From Ascidia mentula (lineage: Eukaryota > Chordata > Ascidiacea > Phlebobranchia > Ascidiidae), in NCBI GenBank assembly GCA_947561715.1, contig OX387200.1, forward strand, positions 4,342,501-4,406,500: DNA of 64,000 nucleotides. Reading direction: 5' to 3'. The notes under the pieces were generated by a model. The model was not told the DNA's origin, made no database searches, and was given only the letters and a program-made list of their open reading frames with translations. Positions 30,709-48,289 of the stretch are shown here, piece after piece. Position 1 is the first letter of the stretch, and each line of letters opens with the position of its first letter. A program made the translations under genes and the position numbers.

Positions 30709-32147
30709 CTAAAAAGAGTATGCACCATATACAAATAACGCTGTCAAAGTGGTGACCACCAACACAGTGGTCTTAAATTCCGTTTCGATTTTGGCCATAA
30801 CTTCACTCGATTCTCGGAAGTGATCCATCAATTTTCCACCCTTGTTTTTGTGTGGAAAGGGTTCATCAGGAATTTCGACCCCGAGAAAGTCGCAGAGAGG
30901 TTTCCATCCGTCTGATACTTTGTACACCAACAGTCTGTCTTTAGGCGCCATCTGTATGGAGTTGCATATATTCGGTTAAACTGCAAAAAGTATTAACTGC
31001 AAAAATCGTTGTCGAGTAATAAGATGTGACTGCAAAGCTTGATATTAGCTTGGAAAGCATCGTAACAATAAAATACTTACCGTTTGCACGTACAAGTTGT
31101 GTTCTCTAAACATTTTCTTCAAGACGTTTTCGCTGTTTGCGGTCAATTTGCTGCTGGGCCATGTTGGCATGTTAAACAAATATTTTTCTGCAACGCAAAT
31201 AAGTGTTTCTTGGTAAACGTTGCCTTAAACACAGCTTTATACACGTCAATGCAAATGAACAAAAACTAAAAGTAAAACAATACAAAAATCTATACTTACG
31301 TGCATTACAGCGGTAACTTATCCTTGTAATTCCAGTGAAAGTAAAGTTCTGAACAAAAAACGCCATCCAGCTTTTTGAAACTTCCTCTGCCTGTTTTCTA
31401 ACACTTTTGTACCACGAGTCCTCGTCCCGTAGCATCAGAATAATCTATCAATCGCATGCCAACATTAACTTTCGTAAACTTATGCGCGTTTGCCACAGTA
31501 TCGATTTCAACTCTGAATAATTTCAAAACTTAATATTTCAAACACCTTTGGAAAAGGTTCCCGACAAGTTCTTTTTTTATTCAAACGTTGTTTTTTTGTA
31601 TTTTAAGTAATGTACTAAAGTTGTAATTTTGGTACCATACTGTAAAAGTTTTTGTGCAGTATTGTAATATTTCTGTTCCCGTATATTCCGATAACGTTCG
31701 CATGTAAAAGCGGAACAAATATAATCCATAATAAATGTTGAAACCCTTTTTTGGGAAGTAATGTTTCGAGATGCTCCAATGCATTTTCTACGCATTAAAA
31801 ACAAAGTGCTTTATTTCTACCCATTAAAACAACGCCTTGACAGCCAAAGTTTGTCAACAACGTTGTGACGTCTGAGGCGGTTGAGGAACCAATACCTTTG
31901 CTTCAGGAAATGCCTTGGATAATTCCTCCCAATAATAGAAGCAGGGAAGGTCGGTAACTGCATCCACACCTTCGTACATTCGTTCGAAATCACCTGGCTT
32001 TACGCCGTTTTCAAAGATTACATTCCACTCCTTGTGTAGGTAGTATACATTTTCCATGTAGTCGTATACATTGTACCCGAGGATGCGCAAGGCTGCACAT
32101 AATGTCTTTGTACCTGTCTTAGCATACCCAGCCACAATCACCTTCAT
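30709..32147 (-). CDS. Sulfotransferase-like (Sulfotransfer_4), copy 1
   Basis: Four exons: 32147-31896, 31444-31300, 31187-31081, 30951-30709; 248 aa. Exon 1 carries the P-loop-like PAPS 5'-phosphosulfate motif GYAKTGTKTL (residues 7-16) and FERMYEGVDAVTD. Exon 2 has the 3'-phosphate-type element LMLRDEDSWYKS. Exon 4 has VSDGWKPLCDFLGVEIP and PFPHKNKGG, a hallmark of this family, followed by a hydrophobic C-terminal segment (LVVTTLTALFVYGAYSF) that would anchor the protein by its tail. I name the family from these motifs; the substrate is unknown. It is the most 3' member of a same-strand cluster. Confidence 0.85.
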
Positions 32148-32823: not shown

Positions 32824-33453
32824 GATATTAACATCATAAATAATTTCATTTCCTGTTTCAAAAATTTTTTTGTGAAGTGTGCTTCAACATGTCTGTGTTG
32901 ACGTAATCGAACTGTGACGTAATCATATCGTAGTTTGAGAGTAGTGATATGGTTAAACCGCTTTGATTTTTGTAGAACGACATTTCAAGGCAAAATAACG
33001 TAGTCTGCCATAAGTGGACTAAATTTTAAAGTTATCCTGGGTCTTAAGACATTTATAAATGTGATTTATTTATGCATGTGTCTCACATCTTGATGTAATA
33101 ATATTTTAATAGGGTTTGATCCTATTCAAATTGCCAATCATACGCTCATTCAAATATAGGGAGTAGTGAAGCAGTTTCTAAAAAATACCAACATTTCGTG
33201 TGTGGATTTGACGTACAATTTGTTGACTGGCACACGCTGTGTTCGTAATATTGGCGATCTCCAGGTATTCGATATTGAAAGTTGCTCTGCACATGATAAG
33301 CACTGTATGTGCTTGAAGGCAAAGCAAGGTGCAGTGTAATAGGATGAAAAATTGCGTTTTTGTCACTACAAATAGCCTGTGAACCTAAGCGATGAAATTT
33401 TAGCGCAAACGCAAGTCGAACAATTAACAATTAGTTTCTTCGGCATTTCAAAA

Positions 33454-35294
33454 TCAGAAGAATGCGCACCCGTACAAAACGTACACGAACATGGCCAGTA
33501 AAACGGATGCAATTAGCAGGGTGACTTTGAACTCTTTTTCAATTTCGCGCAAGGTTTTATCGGTTTTCTTCATTTCCTCTAACAAAACCCCTCCCTTATT
33601 TTTGTGTGGAAAGGGTTTGTCGGGAATTTCGACCCCGAGAAAGTCGCAGAGAGGTTTCCATCCGTCTGATATTTTGTACACCAGCAACTTGTCTTTGGGC
33701 GCCACCTGCACATAAAGACCAGACTTCATAGTTCATATTAAGTGCAAACAGTCTTTACGACAATTCGTCGTTACTATAATGGGGTTTTGTAACATCTTAA
33801 AAAATACGAAAAATAACTCATCATTATACACCAAACATACTAGTTTACTACTAAATTAAGGAAGATGGCGACATGGAATAATAAAATGCATCATCAGCAA
33901 CACCATGTATTCATAAATACACATTTTTCACACAAAATGATCCTTTCTTTATATGACATAGTTATAATATATAACCCGGCGTAACTAATTTTATGTACTT
34001 ATGCCAACGATCCGTACGCGAAGACCTACCGTTTGCACGTAAAGATTGTGTTCCCGATACATCCGTTTCATCACCGTTTGATTGTGAGTGATTAACTTGC
34101 ATTTGGGCCACGGTGACACATCTCCCATAAATTTCACTGGTACAAAAGTATGATATATTTAAATAAGCGAGTAATGTCAAGGCTTTTCTGCTCGTATTCT
34201 TAAATCCAGTTATGCGAGGTTCTAAAGATGATATAAAACGTCTTCACTTATAATGCAACAATGTGTAAAAGCTTCAATCGTCTTCGACGTGCAAGTTTTT
34301 GCTCCGTTCGTTGTCATACCGGTATATAACAATACGCTCTTGTACAAACTTACTGGTATAAATCGTTTTGGGATATTACAAACTTACAAACATTGTAACG
34401 GTATTCGATTCTCGAAAATCCGTGAAGGGTAAAGGTTTGCAAAATCCACCGCATCCAGCTGTTCGACAATTCATCAGCCTGTTTTAGCAGACTTTTGTAC
34501 CAAGAGTCTTCGTCTCTGACCATCAAGATAATCTGAAATAGCAAGATTTTCATGAGCTTATTTAAAGAGCTGGTTTACCCCAACACCTGCCTATACTCGT
34601 TTACTTTATTCGTCGACTTTTGTAATGAAAATTCAAGACTTGCAAGAGAAACTGTCGAGCAATATCACATTGTTCGCTCTATCAACGATGCTCTCGTCAG
34701 AGATCGCTCTTTACGGCCAAACTTTAGTTGTAAAATTTGCGCAACGGTTTCTCTCAGCCGTTTTTTCAAATATTATGAGAATACCTAGTGCAAACTCATA
34801 CAAGTTATGAACTTCCTGTTCCTGCCAGGCATATTGCAATTTACAAATGTACTGCTCTTCTGGCATAAAATAACGTATTGCATTTCATATCAGAAGTCAT
34901 GCAGGTTATATGTTTACTTTATTGGAACCGATACGCTTCGCCAATCGGCAAGCTTTCCAAATATACGTTTTGTTTTCTGCCAGAAGAGCAACATTTAAAA
35001 TTAGCCGCCATATTAGACTCACGTCATAACCAGGGCATATACCTTTGCATCTGGAAAATCTTTTGCCATCTCTTCCCAATAATAAAAGCATGGCGTGTCG
35101 GTGACAGCGTCCACGCCTTTGTACATTCGTTTAAAGTCGCCAGGCTTGACGCCGTCTTCAAAAATCCTGACCCAATCCTTGTGCAAGTAGTACGAGTTTT
35201 CCATGTAATCGTATACATTGTACCCAAGCATACTTAAAGCAAGGCACATGGTTTTTGTGCCTGTTTTGCTGTAGCCTGCTGCAATCACCTTCAT
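33454..35294 (-). CDS. Sulfotransferase-like (Sulfotransfer_4), copy 2
   Basis: Exons 35294-35043, 34532-34388, 34136-34030, 33705-33454; 251 aa. It has GYSKTGTKTM at the P-loop-like site, LMVRDEDSWYKS in exon 2, DGWKPLCDFLGVEIP and PFPHKNKGG in exon 4, and a C-terminal hydrophobic anchor (LLIASVLLAMFVYVLY). Exon 4 starts VAPKD where the other complete copies have MAPKD. It is the most divergent complete copy in exons 1-3. Its exons 3-4 with flanks are duplicated as the partial copy 3. Confidence 0.85.
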
Positions 35295-36568: not shown

Positions 36569-36851
36569 ACAACAACATTTGATGTGTGCATTTATCGTAC
36601 AATTTGTTGACTGGCTTGTTCGTGAGTGTTCGTAATATTGGCGATTTCTGGGTATTCAATATTGGAAGTTGCTCTGTACATGATAAACGCTGTATGTGTT
36701 TGAAAGCAAAGCAAGGTGCAGTGTAATAGGATAAGATTGCATGAAAATTGCCGTTTTTTTTCACTACAAATAGCCTGTAAACCTAGGCGATAAAATTTTA
36801 GCGCAAACGCAAGTCGAACAATTAACAATTAGTTTCTTCGGCATTTCAAAA

Positions 36852-37564
36852 TCAGAAGAATGCGCACTTGTATACAACGTACACGAACACGGCCAGTAAA
36901 ACGGATGCAATTAGCAGTGTGACTTTGAACTCTTTTTCAATTTCGCGCAAGGTTTTATCGGTTTTCTTCATTTCCTCTAACAAAACCCCTCCCTTATTTT
37001 TGTGTGGAAAGGGTTTGTCGGGAATTTCGACCCCGAGAAAGTCGCAGAGAGGTTTCCATCCGTCTGATATTTTGTACACCAGCAACTTGTCTTTGGGCGC
37101 CACCTGCACATAAAGACCAGACTTCATAGTTCATATTAAGCGCAAACAGTCTTTACGACAATTCGTCGTTACTATAATGGGGTTTTGTAACATCTCAAAA
37201 AATACGAAAAATAACTCATCATTATACACCAAACATACTAGTTTACTACTAAATTGAGGAAGATGGCGACATGGAATAATAAAATACATCATAAGCAACA
37301 TCATGTATTCATAAATACACATTTTTCACACAAAATGATCCTTCATTTATATGACATAGTTATAATATACAACCCGTAACTAAATTTGTGTGCTTTTGCC
37401 AACGATCCGTATGCGTAGTGATTGAAAGTAGCGAAGCAAAGATATAAGAAGACCTACCGTTTGCACGTAAAGATTGTGCTCCCGATACATCCGTTTCATC
37501 ACTGTTTGATTGTAAGTGATTAACTTGCATTTGGGCCACGGTGACGCATCTCCCATAAATTTCA
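36852..37564 (-). pseudogene. Sulfotransferase-like, partial copy 3
   Basis: Only exon 3 (37564-37458) and exon 4 (37103-36852) are present, both open and with intact splice sites, very close to copy 2: exon 4 differs by a handful of residues near the C-terminus. The matching block is about 1.07 kb (about 36575-37660 against 33190-34235) and includes intron and 3' flank. Exons 1 and 2, with the P-loop and RDEDSWY motifs, are absent between here and the next gene; that interval is filled by a direct repeat and a foldback transposon. It is therefore a truncated duplicate, probably non-functional unless spliced to a neighbour. Confidence 0.8.
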
Positions 37565-37734
37565 CTGGTACAAAGTATGATATTTATAAATAAGCGAGTA
37601 ATGTCAAGGATTTTCTGCTCGTATTCTTAAATCCAGTTATGCGAGATTTTAAAGATGTTATAAATCGGATCAATAAACAAACAAAAATATTGTGCAGGGG
37701 CAGCGCCTTGCACATTGCATCTGATGAACTTGAT

Positions 37735-37915: not shown

Positions 37916-38089
37916 CTACTTAGTTAATTCAATAGAATAAGAAAAGGCTAACACATTAGGTATTTATAAAAAAAGTTTTGTTGAATTGCGTTGCCAAATG
38001 ACACAAAACCCAGGTATATACATATTCGAAAATCATTTACACAAACACCTTAACCTTAAACTCTTCGATTTAGGACGTTATCCCTTCTC

Positions 38090-38353
38090 ACCACCCTCAT
38101 TCTGGCAGAATTCTGGCAGAATAATTTTGCAAATTTGCCACATTTTACAAGGTACAACAGGCATTTACTCAAAACTTGTTTTTTTTGGATTAGAATCAAA
38201 TTACAGAGATGAGCAAGCAGATCAAACCTCAAAAAACATTTAAACAACATTTTCCGCAGCTGTATCAATCAAAAAAATCGCGAATTAAAAAAATCGCCTG
38301 GTTTTGCGATTCAGCATAATGGCGGCATGCGAAAAACTAGTCTAATACAAAGA
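38090..38353 (+). repeat. Foldback terminal inverted repeat, left
   Basis: Unique outer part of the left arm. It contains ATTCTGGCAG twice in tandem around an EcoRI-like GAATTC and matches 42651-42912 in reverse complement nearly throughout. Confidence 0.8.
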
Positions 38354-40404
38354 ATTCTGCTCGGCGTTCTGGCAATAGGTGCCAATATTGACCAATATCA
38401 AGAGAACGGAAATTTAATTCTCTACAACATGCAATTAACAAATTTGAAATTAAGGTGCCGGATGACCTTCAAATCGCCGATTGAAGACGACCCGCTTTGA
38501 GCGAATCAGCAGCGTAATGGCGTAATGTCGGCATGCGAAAAACTTCCCTATTAAAACAATTCTGCTCGGCGTTCTGGTAATAGGTGCCAATATTGACCAA
38601 TATCAAGAGAACGGAAATTTAATTCTCTACAACATGCAATTAACAAATTTGAAATTAAGGTGCCGGATGACCTTCAAATCGCCGATTGAAGACGACCCGC
38701 TTTGAGCGAATCAGCAGCGTAATGGCGTAATGTCGGCATGCGAAAAACTTCCCTATTAAAACAATTCTGCTCGGCGTTCTCGCAATAGGTGCCAATATTG
38801 ACCAATATCAAGAGAACGGAAATTTAATTCTCTACAACATGCAATTAACAAATATGAAATTAAGGTGCCGGATGACCTTCAAATCGCCGATTGAAGACGA
38901 CCCGCTTTGAGCGAATCAGCAGCGTAATGGCGTAATGTCGGCATGCGAAAAACTTCCCTATTAAAACAATTCTGCTCGGCGTTCTCGCAATAGGTGCCAA
39001 TATTGACCAATATCAAGAGAACGGAAATTTAATTCTCTACAACATGCAATTAACAAATTTGAAATTAAGGTGCCGGATGACCTTCAAATCGCCGATTGAA
39101 GACGACCCGCTTTGAGCGAATCAGCAGCGTAATGGCGTAATGTCGGCATGCGAAAAACTTCCCTATTAAAACAATTCTGCTCGGCGTTCTCGCAATAGGT
39201 GCCAATATTGACCAATACCAAGAGAACGGAAATTTAATTCTCTACAACATGCAATTAACAAATTTGAAATTAAGGTGCCGGATGACCTTCAAATCGCCGA
39301 TTGAAGACGACCCGCTTTGAGCGAATCAGCAGCGTAATGGCGTAATGTCGGCATGCGAAAAACTTCCCTATTAAAACAATTCTGCTCGGCGTTCTGGCAA
39401 TAGGTGCCAATATTGACCAATATCAAGAGAACGGAAATTTAATTCTCTACAACATGCAATTAACAAATTTGAAATTAAGGTGCCGGATGACCTTCAAATC
39501 GCCGATTGAAGACGACCCGCTTTGAGCGAATCAGCAGCGTAATGGCGTAATGTCGGCATGCGAAAAACTTCCCTATTAAAACAATTCTGCTCGGCGTTCT
39601 CGCAATAGGTGCCAATATTGACCAATACCAAGAGAACGGAAATTTAATTCTCTACAACATGCAATTAACAAATTTGAAATTAAGGTGCCGGATGACCTTC
39701 AAATCGCCGATTGAAGACGACCCGCTTTGAGCGAATCAGCAGCGTAATGGCGTAATGTCGGCATGCGAAAAACTTCCCTATTAAAACAATTCTGCTCGGC
39801 GTTCTGGCAATAGGTGCCAATATTGACCAATATCAAGAGAACGGAAATTTAATTCTCTACAACATGCAATTAACAAATATGAAATTAAGGTGCCGGATGA
39901 CCTTCAAATCGCCGATTGAAGACGACCCGCTTTGAGCGAATCAGCAGCGTAATGGCGTAATGTCGGCATGCGAAAAACTTCCCTATTAAAACAATTCTGC
40001 TCGGCGTTCTGGCAATAGGTGCCAATATTGACCAATATCAAGAGAACGGAAATTTAATTCTCTACAACATGCAATTAACAAATTTGAAATTAAGGTGCCG
40101 GATGACCTTCAAATCGCCGATTGAAGACGACCCGCTTTGAGCGAATCAGCAGCGTAATGGCGTAATGTCGGCATGCGAAAAACTTCCCTATTAAAACAAT
40201 TCTGCTCGGCGTTCTCGCAATAGGTGCCAATATTGACCAATATCAAGAGAACGGAAATTTAATTCTCTACAACATGCAATTAACAAATTTGAAATTAAGG
40301 TGCCGGATGACCTTCAAATCGCCGATTGAAGACGACCCGCTTTGAGCGAATCAGCAGCGTAATGGCGTAATGTCGGCATGCGAAAAACTTCCCTATTAAA
40401 ACAA
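38354..40404 (+). repeat. Ten 205-bp tandem units, left arm
   Basis: Unit starts (ATTCTGC) at 38354, 38559, 38764, 38969, 39174, 39379, 39584, 39789, 39994 and 40199: exactly 205 bp each with no indels and very few substitutions. A recurring variant site reads CTGGCAAT or CTCGCAAT. There is no conserved reading frame. Confidence 0.95.
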
Positions 40405-41763
40405 AAAATGCACTAAAACTGCACCTAACACGCTGAAAATCGCTATACCACGTGACTTCTTGCTCATTCAACCAGAAAATTGACCCCAATGCATCACCGG
40501 TTGCCTTGTGACGAAACTGAGAATCTCTATGACGCAGGAGTACAAGACGGGCAATCCCCGCGGGCAAAACTATTTTAATAGAGTTGCTGATATGCGGTCT
40601 TTAGTCCTATTTTCATAAAATAAAGTTTGGTCCTGGCATTGAAATTCGTTTTGGTCGAAGATTGCCTTTCTTTTTGTTTGTCCCTTATGACGCATTGACG
40701 TTGATGAGGACATATTTCGCGCGTTATCGTTTGACTGTACTGTTGCATTCTATTAGGATTTGATCTCAGATACCGAAAAGTTTATCAACCCGTATGGATT
40801 CGTGGTACCTAACATGAAAATTTTTTAATAACCTCCCTCCTATTATCTCCTGACTCCCCTATCAATGACACATTTGCAGGAATTTGTCAGGTGTAGTATG
40901 AATTACACTACATTTTCAATTTTTTTTTCCCTCAAAAGTAACCATCACAATTCAACTTTTCCTTTTTTTTCGAACTGAACAGTGAAGAAATGAATCACGA
41001 CCTGCACAGAAAATAGAGCATATTTTTTTTACAGTATTTTGTCACAGAAATAAATTATGCAACAGATGTCACAGGATAAACAGTAAATAAATATGTTTGT
41101 GTGTATTGGAAAAAATAGTATTTAGCGTTATATATGTCACATACCTCTAAAATTTGTTGCCATTTTATCCAAAGAGCACATGAAAAAGAAATGTAGAAAG
41201 CAATCCATCATCTAAACATGTAGCAAAAATGTTTTGTATTTGTTTACACCAAGGGTGTACAAACTGCAGTCCGCAAATCAACATTTTGTAGCATGTCGAA
41301 GGCTGCTACGTGGCCCGGCCCCGGAATTTAACAAATACAATTTTTTACAAATAAAGTGGTGTATTATTGCCAAGTTTGCTGATATGTGCAAATGTGATTG
41401 AACACATGTTGTACTTGCATACTGCCAAAGTTATAAATTTAGAAGGCTTATGGTGTAATCAAGTTTGGTCCTTCAGTCCAGACTGTGCTACACTTGGTTC
41501 ATGCATTCAGCAGGTTTTACTGTACAGGTCTGTTTTCCCCAAAAAATAATGCAACACATAAATAAGTTGTTATTACACCAATAAACATATTTTAGTAAGT
41601 GTGTAACTTATGTAATAAACCAACATAAAGCATTGTGCATCTTACATACCTTTTTATTTTGTTCCATTTGCAATTTTATCTGAACAGCACATGACAAAGA
41701 AATGAAGAAAACAATCCATCAGCTACACATAAATATAGCAAAATATGTATTAGGAAACAATAA
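40405..41763. other. Non-coding centre of the foldback element
   Basis: AT-rich, without a credible ORF. It contains an imperfect direct repeat of about 95 bp (41139-41231 and 41643-41740; shared GCACATGA.AAAGAAATG and CAATCCATCA) and, between them, a hAT-like terminal motif (CAAGGGTGTACAAACTGCAG at 41250), suggesting an older insertion within the element. Confidence 0.6.
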
Positions 41764-42650
41764 ATAAATTTCCGTTCTCTTGATATTGGTCAATATTGGC
41801 ACCTATTGCGAGAACGCCGAGCAGAATTGTTTTAATAGGGAAGTTTTTCGCATGCCGACATTACGCCATTACGCTGCTGATTCGCTCAAAGCGGGTCGTA
41901 TTCTATCGGCGATTTGAAGGTCATCCGGCACCTTAATTTCAAATTTGTTAATTGCATGTTGTAGAGAATTAAATTTCCGTTCTCTTGATATTGGTCAATA
42001 TTGGCACCTATTGCCAGAACGCCGAGCGGAATTGTTTTAATAGGGAAGTTTTTCGCATGCCGACATTACGCCATTACGCCGCTGATTCGCTCAAAGCGGG
42101 TCGTCTTCAATCGGCGATTTAAAGGTCATCCGGCACCGTAATTTCAAATTTGTTAATTGCATGTTGTAGAGAATTAAATTTCCGTTCTCTTGATATTGGT
42201 CAATATTGGCACCTATTGCCAGAACGCCGAGCAGAATTGTTTTAATAGGGAAGTTTTTCGCATGCCGACATTACGACATTACGCTGCTGATTCGCTCAAA
42301 GCGGGTCGTCTTCAATCGGCGATTTGAAGGTCATTCGGCACCTTAATTTCAAATTTGTTAATTGCATGTTGTAGAGAATTAAATTTCCGTTCTCTTGATA
42401 TTGGTCAATATTGGCACCTATTGCGAGAACGCCGAGCAGAATTGTTTTAATAGTAGAGTTTTTCGCATGCCGACATTACGCCATTACGCTGCTGATTCGC
42501 TCAAAGCGGGTCGTCTTCAATCGGCGATTTGAAGGTCATCCGGCACCTTAATTTCAAATTTGTTAATTGCATGTTGTAGAGAATTAAATTTCCGTTCTCT
42601 TGATATTGGTCAATATTGGCACCTATTGCCAGAACGCCGAGCAGAATTCT
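41764..42650 (-). repeat. About 4.3 205-bp units, right arm
   Basis: Inverted relative to the left array. Reference points at 41821, 42026, 42231, 42436 and 42641 are again exactly 205 bp apart. The innermost unit is incomplete. The CTGGC/CTCGC variant site of the left arm is also polymorphic here. Confidence 0.93.
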
Positions 42651-42912
42651 TTGTATTAGACTAGTTTTTCGCATGCCGCCATTATGCTGAATCGCAAAAC
42701 CAGGCGATTTTTTTAATTCGCAATTTTTTTGATTGATACAGCTGCGGAAAATGTTGTTTAAATGTTTTTTGAGGTTTGATCTGCTTGCTCATCTCTGTAA
42801 TTTGATTCTAATCCAAAAAAAAACAATTTTTGAGTAAATGCCTGTTGTACCTTGTAGAATGTGGCAAATTTGCAAAATTATTCTGCCAGAATTCTGCCAG
42901 AATGAGGGTGGT
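42651..42912 (-). repeat. Foldback terminal inverted repeat, right
   Basis: Reverse complement of 38090-38353 with a few substitutions; it forms the outer end of the right arm. Confidence 0.8.
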
Positions 42913-43683
42913 CCCTTCCGCCCACACGTTTGGATGTTTGTCACGCCTGACTGCACTCGAGACAGGCTGTTTAAAAAACCTTTTTCAAATCCATTGAAAC
43001 AAAATCAAAATCCTAATTCTGTGTAATGTTGTTCCGCTCACCAACTTAGAAGATTTGCATCATAAACTGTAATAAAACTTCGTTTGGGTATTATTTTAAT
43101 ATATTTATGGATGTTGCCTCAAATTACAATTCGAATTAAAATACAAATTATTTCTTTTTATTGTCAATTAACAAATGCAAGCGATTTTATCGTGAAAAAT
43201 TTGTATTGATCAGAAGGTCAGGTACAATTATTATACATAAGGCAATAAATCAGGACCTTTATTTAACTCTGTGCTAATTTACACAGATAAATATTTTGAT
43301 CAAAAATGCTTGATATACTATGGTAAAAATTGTACTAATGGTGAAGGTTAATGAGAACTAACACAATCGATATGTTAATATGTATTTACTTGTCGAAGTA
43401 GCCCTGTAAGGCTCTGTTTCTCCGGGGATACAAACTTTAGTTCTGACACATCGTTGTATGGTCTCGATGTTTGCCATAGAAATAAAAAAACGGTGAGGCG
43501 CTTTTATGGTGACATGCAACTTTCGGTATCGGCTTCAGTCAATTTTGATGCATGTTCGTTTCAATAGCTGGGATTGCCGAGAAAATACATTTGCATAATT
43601 AAAAGAATCGTATCACGACAAATACTTTATGTACAAAATCTGCATTGTCTGGTAATGCTCAAAGTCGTAACTCTTGTCTGATG
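42913..43683. other. Spacer and 3' flank of copy 4
   Basis: No gene is recognised. The last 200 bp or so before copy 4 resemble the 3' flank of copy 5 (about 46530-46679), consistent with a shared 3' UTR and tandem duplication. Confidence 0.5.
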
Positions 43684-45348
43684 TTACTCGAAAATCCACA
43701 TATACCCTACGTACAGAAAAATCGTAACCAAAGTCGTGAACACCAGGATATTGACCTTTAATTCCTTTTCGATTTTGGCCATAACTTCGCTCGTTTCCAG
43801 AAGATGCTCCATAATTTTTCCACCCTTATTTTTGTGGGGAAAGGGTTCATCAGGAATTTCAACCCCGAGAAAGTCGCAGAGTGGTTTCCATCCGTCTGAT
43901 ACTTTGTACACCAACAGTCTTTCTTTAGGCGCCATCTGCGTGCATAGTTAATCAAAAATCTGGAAAACTGTCTAAACTGTAGTGGATGATGCGAGTCATT
44001 GCCGACAGATAACCACAATGTGAAAATGCATTGATACCTAGCCCTTGGCTAATGGTAATTCAGGTCATAAGATTAGCATCGACAAAATAGCATACCCAAT
44101 GCTTACCTTTTGCACGTACAAGTTATGCTCATTATACATTCGTTTCATGGCGTCTTTATTGGGTGCGGTTAATTTGCTGCTGGGCCATGGCGGTATGTCA
44201 AACAAATCCTTCCCTGAAATGTATTCAATAAGAGATATCTTGTGTTTCTTTGCGAAAAAAACATGTTAACATCAAATTGAGGCGATTCAATGTCAATCTA
44301 AACATGTTGAAACTATCTGCGTTCCTTATCCATGTTACATATGTTACCTACGTGTATTGTACAGGCAGCGATATCTTCTAAGTCCGGAAAAAGTAAAGTT
44401 CTGAAAGAAGAACGGAGCCCAGCTTTTTGATACTTCCTCTGCATGCTTTTCAAGACTTCTGTACCACGAATCCTCGTCCCGTAGCATTAGAATAATCTAA
44501 CAACACGCTTCACTATTATCACTATTATTAACTTTGCCTTAATTTTATTCTATTTTAAATCAATATCGATTTCGACCATGTTTTTCTCAGCGTTGAGACC
44601 AATCTGTCATATTTATAATTACTGTGTGTGAATTTACATTTCCACCGGTTAATTTCCAATGCATTATTGGCAAAAATGATTTGTTGTACGTTTGCAATGT
44701 TGTAAGAATCTGGACAGTGAAAATGCAGTTTTGTTCATGTATTAAATCAAGATCCACAGGTGTACCACAGTACCGGGCGGACACGCCAGGGTCCATGAAC
44801 ATCAATGTTTGCTTAAAATGGCTTGAGGCTAATTAGAGAGCTCTCTAGGTTACAGTCTATCGTGATCTTCAAAAAACTCTCGCATCGGCACGCACTGTTT
44901 GCTGTCTCAAGCCTAGCATGGAAGAGCGACAGTCAGATGATATAACTACACTGATTTCTAGGCTTCGGATTAAGTTTTACCGCTGCAGAGAAAAGTTTCT
45001 CTACACCGCAAATGATGTACGTCCTCAAATCCCCCGAGTATTATGGTATCTTGCATAAGTAATTGTATTACTTATCTATGACTGCACTTACAATACCTTT
45101 GCTTCAGGGAACGCTTTGGACAACTCTTCCCAATAATAATAACACGGGCTGTCAGTAACGGCATCCACACCTTCGTACATTCGTTCAAAATCACCTGGCC
45201 TCACGCCGTTTTCGATAATTCTATTCCAATCCTTGTGTAGGTAGTACACATTTTCCATGTAGTCGTATACATTATACCCAATCAGACGTAAGGCTGCACA
45301 CAATGTCTTTGTACCAGTCTTGGCATATCCAGCCACAATAACCTTCAT
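43684..45348 (-). CDS. Sulfotransferase-like (Sulfotransfer_4), copy 4
   Basis: Exons 45348-45097, 44496-44352, 44213-44107, 43935-43684; 251 aa. It has GYAKTGTKTL in exon 1, LMLRDEDSWYRS in exon 2, WPSSKL in exon 3, and DGWKPLCDFLGVEIP, PFPHKNKGG and a C-terminal hydrophobic anchor in exon 4. It shares the MAPKE/MAPKD exon 4 start and 3' flank with copy 5, so these two are close relatives. Confidence 0.85.
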
Positions 45349-46679
45349 TTTGAAGTTACAAAAACTTCTTAGAACCAGGTAGGAGAAACAGCAATTATTT
45401 TTACAACAGTAGGCATCCGGTTACACTGCCTGCAAGCTGTTTAACTTTTTCCATTTAATTACATTAAAACAACAATAAGAAAACCAGTAATTGTGCGTTC
45501 GCAGCTTAACTAACATTTTAAAGTTCTAGACTATTGCACGAATGCACAGCACGATCAGCGCTGCTTCTTCGGTTCAAACGCTGTGTCACAGTATCACCAG
45601 CTTTTTTCTAATTGAAACGCGCCGAACCGTGTCGATGAACTGCTTGCTTGTGTAGTTTTGAAACTAAACCTTTCACAGGTTGTCACGTTGCACATTCGAC
45701 ACCAACTACTTCGTATTACCTTTTTGTTTGCATTAGCAGCGGTGTTAAACAGCACGCGTTTAAATGTGAAGTAACTTTTATTGGGGAAATGGTTAATTTG
45801 TCAACACGTTTCATTGAATGTCATCCATGACTTCTCTCGAAAAAGTTGATAAGCTCACTGAAACCAAAATTTCTGATATATCTACTGTTACTTCTTGAAG
45901 TTCATTGTTCGTCGTTCATAGTAACGCAACAATGACCACTGTATGTAACTCTTTTAGAAGGCTTTTGGTTGAAGTTGTTGCAATGCTCAGTTGGAGTTGT
46001 TGCAATGCTCAGTTGGAGTTGTTGCAATGCTCAGTTGAAGTTGTTGCAAATGCTCAGTGTTTGCAACGCATAGTAGAGTGCGTGGTGGTAATTGTGACCG
46101 AGTAAATTTGTTTTATTTACACCTTAACAGATAATCTTGAAAGTAAATGTTGATGGAAGAAGAGCTAATAAACTTATGAAAAGAAGCATCATTGCCTGAT
46201 GCAAAATAGTTAGTAGTTGGTGCTTGTTGGCGTTCTGTATCATAAATTTTGATTATATGTTTTGTGTATTCGTTGAAGAAAACCGCTGCGTGTGTGGAAA
46301 ATGTTGAAATGAATAGCTTAAAAGCGGTTTACGTTTTTGCTTTGAGCGCTTCAAAACAGAAAGGTCAGTCACACGCGAGCATAGGACTTGTAAAGGGCTA
46401 GGAAAACGCAAGGAAAAAGGCATAGACTGCATGTTTCGGTGCATACACTATTCGTGCTGCATTTAATGATGCAAGTTCGTGATGATTATACATATATTTA
46501 GATTTGCGTTTGTCGAATGAGACATGAAATTAAGACGTTTTATGGCGACATGCAGCTTTTTGATCCATGTTCATTTCGATTGCTGGGATCACCGAGAAAA
46601 CACTTCCGCATGATGGCAAGAATCCGTTCACGACACACACTTTATGTACAAAATTAAAGTCATAACTCTTATCTCAATG
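45349..46679. other. Spacer between copies 4 and 5
   Basis: Contains the 5' flank of copy 4, a 22-bp minisatellite at 45968-46059 and the 3' flank of copy 5. No gene is recognised. Confidence 0.5.
45968..46059. repeat. 22-bp minisatellite, about four units
   Basis: Unit GTTGTTGCAATGCTCAGTTGGA repeated with a 22-bp period (CAATGCTCAG at 45981, 46003 and 46025; CAAATGCTCAG at 46047). A run-on plus-strand frame through it is an artefact. Confidence 0.85.
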
Positions 46680-48289
46680 TTACTCGAAAACCCACATGTA
46701 CGCTGCGTACAGAAAAATCGCAATCAAAGTCGTGAACACCAAAACATTGATCTTAAATTCCTTTTCGATTTTGGCCATGGGTTCGCTCGTTTCCAGAAGA
46801 TGCTCAACAATTTTCCCTCCCTTATTTTTGTGGGAAAAGGGCTCGTTTGGAATTTCGACCCCGAGGAAGTCGCAGAGAGGTTTCCATCCGTCCGATATTT
46901 GGTACACTAGCAACTTGTCCTTTGGTGCCATCTGCATAGTTCAAGATAAATATTCAGTAAACACGTTCCGAAATCTTCCACGCCGGGATTGGTTTAAGTG
47001 CGTCATTACCTTAATAAACACCGCTCAAATGGAATATCCAACGCTTACCGTTTGCACGTACAAGTTGTGTTCTCTATACATTCGTTTCATTGCATTTGCA
47101 TTGTGTGCGATCAATTTGGTTCTGGGCCATGTCGGTAATACGAACAACTGCTTTTCTGTAAAATGTTCAAAAAAATAGTGTCAAGATTTTCTTTTTATGG
47201 GCAGAAAATCTTCAGTGTTTGGCCCGCAGGCAGATACGTTAACAGCACCATGTGTATTAGATTGAATAGTTTGGGTACGGAATGGGCGCTTGAAGCAATA
47301 ACCTTTATGGTTTTATCGGGGCCCATGGCATTTTAATTTCTTTTGTGTATTGTATATATAGTTGTTTTTTGCGCAAAATGCACATCATTGGATTTGATTT
47401 TTGTTTGGCTTGTGAGCCTGTAGAAAATGAAACGATGCTAAGTCAAATTACGTGTATTGTAGATGCAGCGCTTCCTTGTAATTCCAGTTAGAGTAAAGCT
47501 CTGAAAGAAGAACGCAGTCCAGCTTTTTGACGCTTGCTCAGCTTGTCTTTTGACGCTTTCATACCACGAGTCTTCATCCCGCAACATTAGAATAATCTAA
47601 CAACACACGTAGCCAATATTATTATGCCGTCAATTCTGTGGCCCAAAGCTAGGATGCTGCTAGTTTGCACCCAAGAACTAACAACATAATTGACATATAA
47701 TGTCGCATAGTATGTTGTAAATACTTGTTGTTGACTTGATAACAGTAATGGGGCTTGCTGCGCAACAGAGTCACTTGTAACAGCTTTAAAAGTTCATTGT
47801 CTACATTCGTGGTTAAGAGTGGCTGCAGTGGCCCAGTGGGGACTTGAATTGTTTGATAATACTTGCATCAGTCAGTGCATTGCAGTGTACAGAAATTATT
47901 CACTAATGTGCGAACTTGTTGCATGACTGGAATATAACAAACTACTGATTTTTATGTCACTGACGTTTTTGTGTCCTCTCGCTCCGTGGTTTTTGACATA
48001 AATAATTAACAGGCATTTATTTATGAACTTGCGATACCTTTGCTTGTGGAAACGCTTCGGAAAGCTCTTCCCAGTAATAGAAGCACGGGCCATCAGTGAC
48101 CGCATCCACACCTTTGTACATTCGCTCGAAATCACCTGGCTTTACACCTTCGTCAAAAATTCTGTTCCAATCTTTGTGTAAGTAGTAGGCGTGTTCCAAG
48201 AAGTCGTATACATTGTACCCGAGGATGCGCAAAGATGCACATAGTGTCTTTGTGCCAGTCTTGGCATACCCAGCCACAATAACTTTCAT
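46680..48289 (-). CDS. Sulfotransferase-like (Sulfotransfer_4), copy 5
   Basis: Exons 48289-48038, 47596-47452, 47155-47049, 46931-46680; 251 aa. Motifs are as in copy 4, with PNEPFSHKNKGG in place of PDEPFPHKNKGG and hydrophobic anchor VLVFTTLIAIFLYAAYMW. The exon 2 donor is GTAATT, weaker than in the other copies, but exon length and phase are preserved. The ORF extends upstream of the chosen ATG (to 48373); the MKVIVAGYAKTG start is preferred because all copies share it. Confidence 0.84.

Follow-up and report, generated by a model that had tools for sequence, protein, structure and literature searches.

The locus examined here, positions 38090-42912 of a 64,000-nucleotide window from the tunicate Ascidia mentula, raises the question of what kind of element stands there, what moves it, and how its long repetitive arms are made and remade. 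The window corresponds to C67:4342501-4406500; C-numbers (C1, C2, C67, C69 and so on) denote contigs of the searched 195.8-Mb genome (79 contigs), and coordinates without a contig label are window positions. An initial annotation of the window had read the locus as a giant foldback transposon, and it was confirmed as a foldback DNA transposon. It very probably belongs to a giant cut-and-paste foldback family, moved in trans, whose arms change separately, and is a non-autonomous copy with an internal deletion. New in this analysis are a candidate source in trans, the architecture of the protein that it encodes, and quantified arm dynamics.

Recurrence of the element was assessed with a 30-nt tip pattern (up to three mismatches, both strands, whole genome). 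The pattern matched 105 places (57 on the plus and 48 on the minus strand) and its reversed control none; a 34-nt unit pattern matched 1,427 places with a control of 0. Given these zero controls, the recurrence lies far beyond chance, and the tips are not confined to the window. From 101 listed tips, 45 elements were paired on nine large contigs, leaving 11 tips unpaired; the paired elements measured 1,086 to 26,407 bp (median 6,013, total 382 kb). Twenty-seven of the 45, namely the window copy and 26 more, were examined as a non-random sample in which the earlier picks were mostly the best DNA matches and the later ones followed contig order. These 27 elements contain 917 of the 1,427 unit-pattern places. 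All 27 carried inverted tips, 18 had a perfect 8-bp target-site duplication and four a perfect 9-bp one, one of the four lying within a (GT)n run, where matching bases come easily. The copy C2:2918988-2938329 was inserted within the core of an older relative. Its flanks matched unbroken cores, for example those of C1:26799116, C2:7849142 and C1:13353096, and overlapped by exactly 8 bp in the matches listed, which provides a related empty site for this copy. The comparison with empty sites proposed in the initial annotation thus showed the 8-bp duplication in a sister copy. No empty paralogous site was found for the window copy itself, since the left-flank duplicate within the window stops about 420 bp from the insertion; this direct duplication (36590-37667 and 33206-34240, 90% identity) lies to the left of the element.

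Further observations concern where copies stand relative to each other. The elements at C2:2512800-2517500 and C2:2918700-2938699, 0.4 Mb apart, sit at nearly the same spot of paralogous older cores; their insertion points are one base apart on the right, and their flanks are 92.6% and 98.9% alike. Segmental duplication, exchange and repeated targeting are the alternatives for this coincidence. At C1:13362800-13367800 a copy is followed, about 70 bp further on, by the tip of a second element, and at C1:10480600-10490599 a tip-like ACCACCGTCATT stands immediately after the target duplication of a copy.

The two ends of the window copy fall exactly where the initial annotation had placed them. 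A unique left tip (38090-38352, plus strand, first bases ACCACCCTCATTCTGGCAG), delimited by tip comparison and by the genome tip pattern, is followed by a left arm array of ten 205-bp units (38353-40402, plus strand). The core (40403-41761) has no sizeable open reading frame (ORF) and ends at an internal deletion, as judged from its match to the core of the copy C69:11163300-11189706. The right arm array consists of 4.3 inverted 205-bp units (41762-42649, minus strand) and leads into the inverted unique right tip (42650-42912, minus strand), recognized by self-alignment and tip comparison. Both arrays were delimited by self-alignment and tandem repeat search, Tandem Repeats Finder reporting 205 bp in 10.2 copies for the left (38317-40404) and in 4.5 copies for the right (41765-42684). 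Both arms are hence built of one tandem unit, as had been claimed; the tips are unique, as claimed, with a length of 263 bp instead of 264 bp. Inverted pairing reached 98% both for the tip arms (38090-38186 with 42816-42912) and for the next arms (38171-39239 with 41762-42830). The combined outer arms paired over 1,150 versus 1,151 nt at 98.1% identity with 21 mismatches and one gap, which bears out the predicted hairpin of about 1.1 kb. The centre, described initially as short and non-coding, measures about 1.36 kb: no ORF of more than 60 aa lies wholly inside it, and a single 90-aa ORF (40295-40567, minus strand) spans the border between left array and core. The 37 bp at the inner end of the left tip (38314-38350) are 81% like a 205-bp unit, as if the array had arisen by outgrowth from the tip.

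Comparison of cores connected the window copy with the rest of the family. Twenty-four cores were compared, leaving out C1:13353096 and the coreless C1:8015222 and C2:2513146, in which the arms meet directly; core lengths ranged from 0.2 to 10 kb. All 23 other cores matched the 10-kb core of C69:11163300-11189706 in part or whole, the match covering roughly half of the core of C1:2679037, which is 241 bp long, and most of each other core. In an older group, about 100 bp at one core end are absent from the C69 core. The window core corresponds to the first approximately 1.34 kb of the C69 core (98.5%) and then passes straight into right-arm units. The same junction was present in C2:4536737, C72:4142654 and C1:7522109, each with a 1,363-bp core that departs from that of the window by 3, 3 and 6 differences, respectively, as well as in C70:11958553 with a core of 1,367 bp. 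Because these copies have a common junction and near-identical cores and sit at different genomic sites, a single deletion derivative has multiplied. The window copy is, as judged from its sequence, an internal-deletion derivative and non-autonomous.

The initial annotation had argued that, with no transposase present, the element relies on a source in trans, and the genome supplied one full-length intact candidate. The core of the 26.4-kb C69 copy contains a single 1,871-codon open frame, whereas the longest frame in 100 shuffled versions of this core had 173 codons at most. A genome search with the 1,871-aa protein, in which scores were computed for 25 of 340 initial candidates, returned one full-length match, that of the C69 copy (100%, without stops), and fragments at 91-97% identity in two derivatives. 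These findings support C69:11163300-11189706 as the likely source in trans for the window copy.

The predicted order of domains in this putative transposase looks like a PHD finger, a transposase-like DDE/CxxH segment, a ULP1/SENP8-like protease and a ubiquitin-specific protease (USP). The N-terminal segment matched the Pfam PHD model with 26.8 bits (cut-off 24, E 5.4e-06), and PHD chains of the PDB matched the protein with E values down to 4e-06. The following segment contains the motifs FDATG (D656), MIDGS (D730), NCLSH (CxxH, 776-779) and VEQHF (E992), an order which we take to resemble the D-D-CxxH-E arrangement of MULE-like enzymes. Residues ~1256-1335 resemble SENP8/NEDP1 (E 0.003), and the His, Asp, Gln and Cys residues, presumably the catalytic ones, are in place. 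A ubiquitin-specific protease occupies residues 1378-1650 (UCH of Pfam, E 1.6e-21; USP36, E 3.4e-09), with Cys and His boxes that we assume to be catalytic. A scan of the protein against NCBIfam returned 0 families, and a scan of viral contigs with the DDE segment gave five pattern matches, none of which was confirmed as a relative.

Distant relatives of the protein were also found in the genome, 22 of them being listed with 30-37% identity to the 1,871-aa protein. The aligned stretch was free of stops in 18 and contained one or two stops in four. A match to the UCH profile overlapped 20 of the 22 by coordinates and comprised nearly the whole profile in 13; in the other seven it comprised the middle or end only, leaving the Cys box unmatched, and one of these seven overlapped merely at the edge and has stops. 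The alignments of the remaining two relatives stop at residues 1277 and 1566. PF02902 (Peptidase_C48) matched elsewhere in the genome and neither any of the 22 relatives nor any foldback element. The relatives are diverse giant transposase-like genes with frames of up to 2,596 aa, for example C72:4753482-4758557. Those at C2:8739615-8743946 and C73:9092254-9096585 are equal in both score and frame, suggesting a recent copying event. A dense one-strand cluster of Peptidase_C48 matches was seen at C1:26.84-27.07 Mb.

The arms proved to be far more variable than the cores. The number of units per arm ranged from 1 to at least 63 in the examined elements, and on the same core side the window copy and its three sisters with 1,363-bp cores have 10, 1, 34 and 63 units. 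The longest gap-free arm is that of C1:7522109 with 63 units; the left arm of C2:2918988 has 75 units by anchors, but this element contains a 200-N gap, and 63 units are therefore quoted as the longest. Long arms show higher-order blocks of units. In C67:10845298 and C1:6914427, the cores of which have one difference in 2,991 bases, the arms contain 18/23 and 13/19 units, respectively. Their right arms differ by a four-unit block present twice versus once and by three single-unit changes, and in the left arms a three-unit block is missing, other changes lying mostly at the inner end. Among tip states, 16 are private to one element at both its ends; another 98 are confined to one tip, and two damaged tips account for 50 of these. 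Nine of the 16 both-end states occur in C1:19981852, the two arms of which, counted from the tip, show no difference for 3,578 bp. Here one arm has probably been overwritten with a copy of the other, and gene conversion, hairpin-templated repair and copying during transposition are possible routes.

Several observations weigh against parts of this interpretation. The target duplication of the window copy is imperfect, its left copy CCCTTCTC (38082-38089) and right copy CCCTTCCG (42913-42920) being equal at 6 of 8 bases, and C1:2679037, C1:26799116, C2:2513146 and C52:3325934 also have no perfect duplication. When the entire frame was scanned at once, the PHD finger remained under the cut-off (22.3 versus 24 bits). 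Pfam, including its MULE model, gave no match on the DDE segment, so that motif order and context are the basis for assigning catalysis, and the ULP1-like segment was not recognized by the Pfam C48 model. PF10551 (MULE) matched none of the 22 relatives and none of the foldback elements, its genome matches lying elsewhere, which counts against a simple MULE label. Finally, the comparison of unit types, which kept 884 of 953 units, identified 68 element-private types with at least two copies each, and 16 of these occurred in both arms versus 41.7 (standard deviation 3.4) expected under free mixing. Arms hence mostly evolve apart, and copying from arm to arm is occasional.

Three other explanations were weighed against a family mobilized by its own protein. 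The locus might be a pair of inverted satellite arrays that was never a transposon, the tips being no more than array borders. The arms are indeed tandem arrays with higher-order blocks; sharp tips at 105 places, 22 of 27 elements with perfect duplications of 8-9 bp, related empty sites and a transposase-like gene in the family core nevertheless make this explanation highly improbable, and a simple satellite was rejected because of the duplications and empty sites. The inverted structure might equally be an error of assembly, since assembly is difficult across long near-identical arrays and the examined element C2:2918988 contains the 200-N gap. The published assembly, kaAscMent1.1, comprises 197.0 Mb in 95 scaffolds and is based on PacBio HiFi reads at 74-fold coverage with a QV of 64.9 (PMC11109543). 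With inverted tips in all 27 examined elements and perfect duplications outside 22 of them, an artefact, which the initial annotation had named as a possible refutation, is scarcely credible and was rejected, although exact unit numbers of the longest arms could be off.

The enzyme itself leaves somewhat more room for doubt. Transposases of the hAT, P and KDZ types all produce target duplications near 8 bp, and one of them might move the family, the 1,871-aa gene being a passenger. This would suit the commonest duplication of 8 bp, as Rehavkus elements are described with 9 bp, the DDE segment without a Pfam match, and the precedent of Galileo, in which foldback arms accompany a P-type transposase. 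On the other side, Pfam scans of the 1,871-aa frame matched no KDZ, THAP, P-type or hAT domain (hAT dimerisation domain included), and membership in KDZ, P or hAT was rejected on these grounds; the six KDZ matches of the genome all lie outside the foldback elements and the 22 relatives. Moreover, the gene sits in a core whose pieces compose the other cores, and it has the 22 listed relatives. We therefore consider a foreign transposase unlikely.

On the preferred reading, a transposase acting in trans, most likely the PHD-DDE-ULP1-USP protein of the C69 copy, would bind the 263-bp tips and perhaps the 205-bp units as well, excise the element and reinsert it, duplicating 8 or 9 bp of the target. 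The window copy is one of the group with the common deletion junction, which spread by transposition. Arm length changes separately as blocks of units are gained or lost, presumably through unequal exchange or slippage, and occasionally one arm, tip included, may be overwritten by the opposite arm.

With unequal inverted arms of tandem units, a unique outer domain and a variable middle, the family has the build of foldback elements. Compared by description only, the nearest in form are Rehavkus-1_TC and Tetris, and the closest described kind is Rehavkus. Rehavkus-1_TC of Tribolium is a 9.5-kb element with inverted ends of 164-bp units, mostly 5 and 8 monomers; Rehavkus transposases have a PHD finger, and a 9-bp duplication and the hosts Arthropoda and Annelida are tabulated (PMC10218199, PMC6446971). 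The tandem units in inverted ends, the PHD finger and the similar duplication length are shared, and the PHD finger points to Rehavkus. However, the Ascidia family has 8 bp in 18 and 9 bp in only four of 27 elements, a tunicate host, arms of up to at least 63 units, elements of up to 26 kb, and USP and ULP1-like domains. Because of the 8-bp mode and the missing Pfam MULE match, the family was not filed as a Rehavkus member and its superfamily is unproven. The suggestion of a Mutator-like enzyme in the initial annotation therefore stands in part: the PHD finger, the 8-9-bp duplication and the D...D...CxxH...E order, taken as MULE-like, speak for it, and the missing Pfam MULE match speaks against it.

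Tetris of Drosophila virilis is described with a flanking domain, ~220-bp units and a variable middle, with 8-9-bp duplications in complete copies and a 37-bp stretch of ~80% likeness between tip and unit (PMC4079207), features that all have counterparts here; whereas no transposase source is known for Tetris in the account available, the Ascidia family has a candidate. FB/FB4 of Drosophila melanogaster likewise has long repetitive arms and non-autonomous copies, with 9-10-bp duplications and a transposase given as unknown (PMC8277862). Tm1 of root-knot nematodes resembles the family in composite arms of variable unit number, 8-10-bp duplications (45/53) and one coding copy among many derivatives, but differs in its short units of 13-15 bp and its 496-aa Phantom-like transposase (PMC3169594). 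Galileo, of the P superfamily, shares the foldback form, deletion derivatives and tandem units (~210 bp, up to 3 in F-group arms), also has chimeric copies, and differs in its P-type transposase, 7-bp duplication and low unit number (PMC3573991). Regarding the protein, Ginger1 transposases with Ulp1, one of them also with PHD, are described, but their DDE is Gypsy-integrase-like and their duplications are 4 bp (PMC2836005). The same paper has a figure in which Ulp1 and PHD domains from both Ginger1 and Mutator transposases are aligned, reports that Mutator elements from hydra, lancelet and plants contain Ulp1, and notes for Trichomonas a C19 peptidase together with a transposase_11 domain; the sections available of it contain no PHD-DDE-ULP1-USP fusion. 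The open-licence papers searched, Repbase excluded, yielded no earlier tunicate foldback family and no earlier transposase joining a PHD finger, Ulp1 and a ubiquitin hydrolase.

In the surroundings of the element, matches to Sulfotransfer_4 (PF17784) were found on both sides, at ~30835-32144 and ~45085-48286 on the minus strand (30.0-38.0 and 43.0-51.0 kb scanned), and the element looks to be located within a tandem sulfotransferase gene cluster. A 22-bp tandem repeat of 4.1 copies lies at 45968-46058.

For some foldback elements, Tetris and FB4 among them, no source is known in the accounts available (PMC4079207, PMC8277862). In Ascidia mentula, one long-read genome brings together derivatives, a single candidate source and about 45 copies, and growth, shrinkage and homogenisation of arms become readable unit by unit. 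A protein with two proteases is also relevant to the removal of ubiquitin or SUMO in transposition, as proposed in the part of the literature consulted (PMC2836005). It is possible, though somewhat short of an even chance, that the family represents a distinct tunicate lineage in which one large transposase would combine a PHD finger that reads chromatin, a divergent DDE domain and two ubiquitin/SUMO-type proteases. Its arms would then be a travelling satellite, with arrays that are up to sixty times longer in one near-identical sister than in another and an arm at times rebuilt in full from the one opposite, perhaps in the course of transposition or the repair that follows it. The dynamics of these arrays tie the ends of transposons to the birth of satellite DNA.

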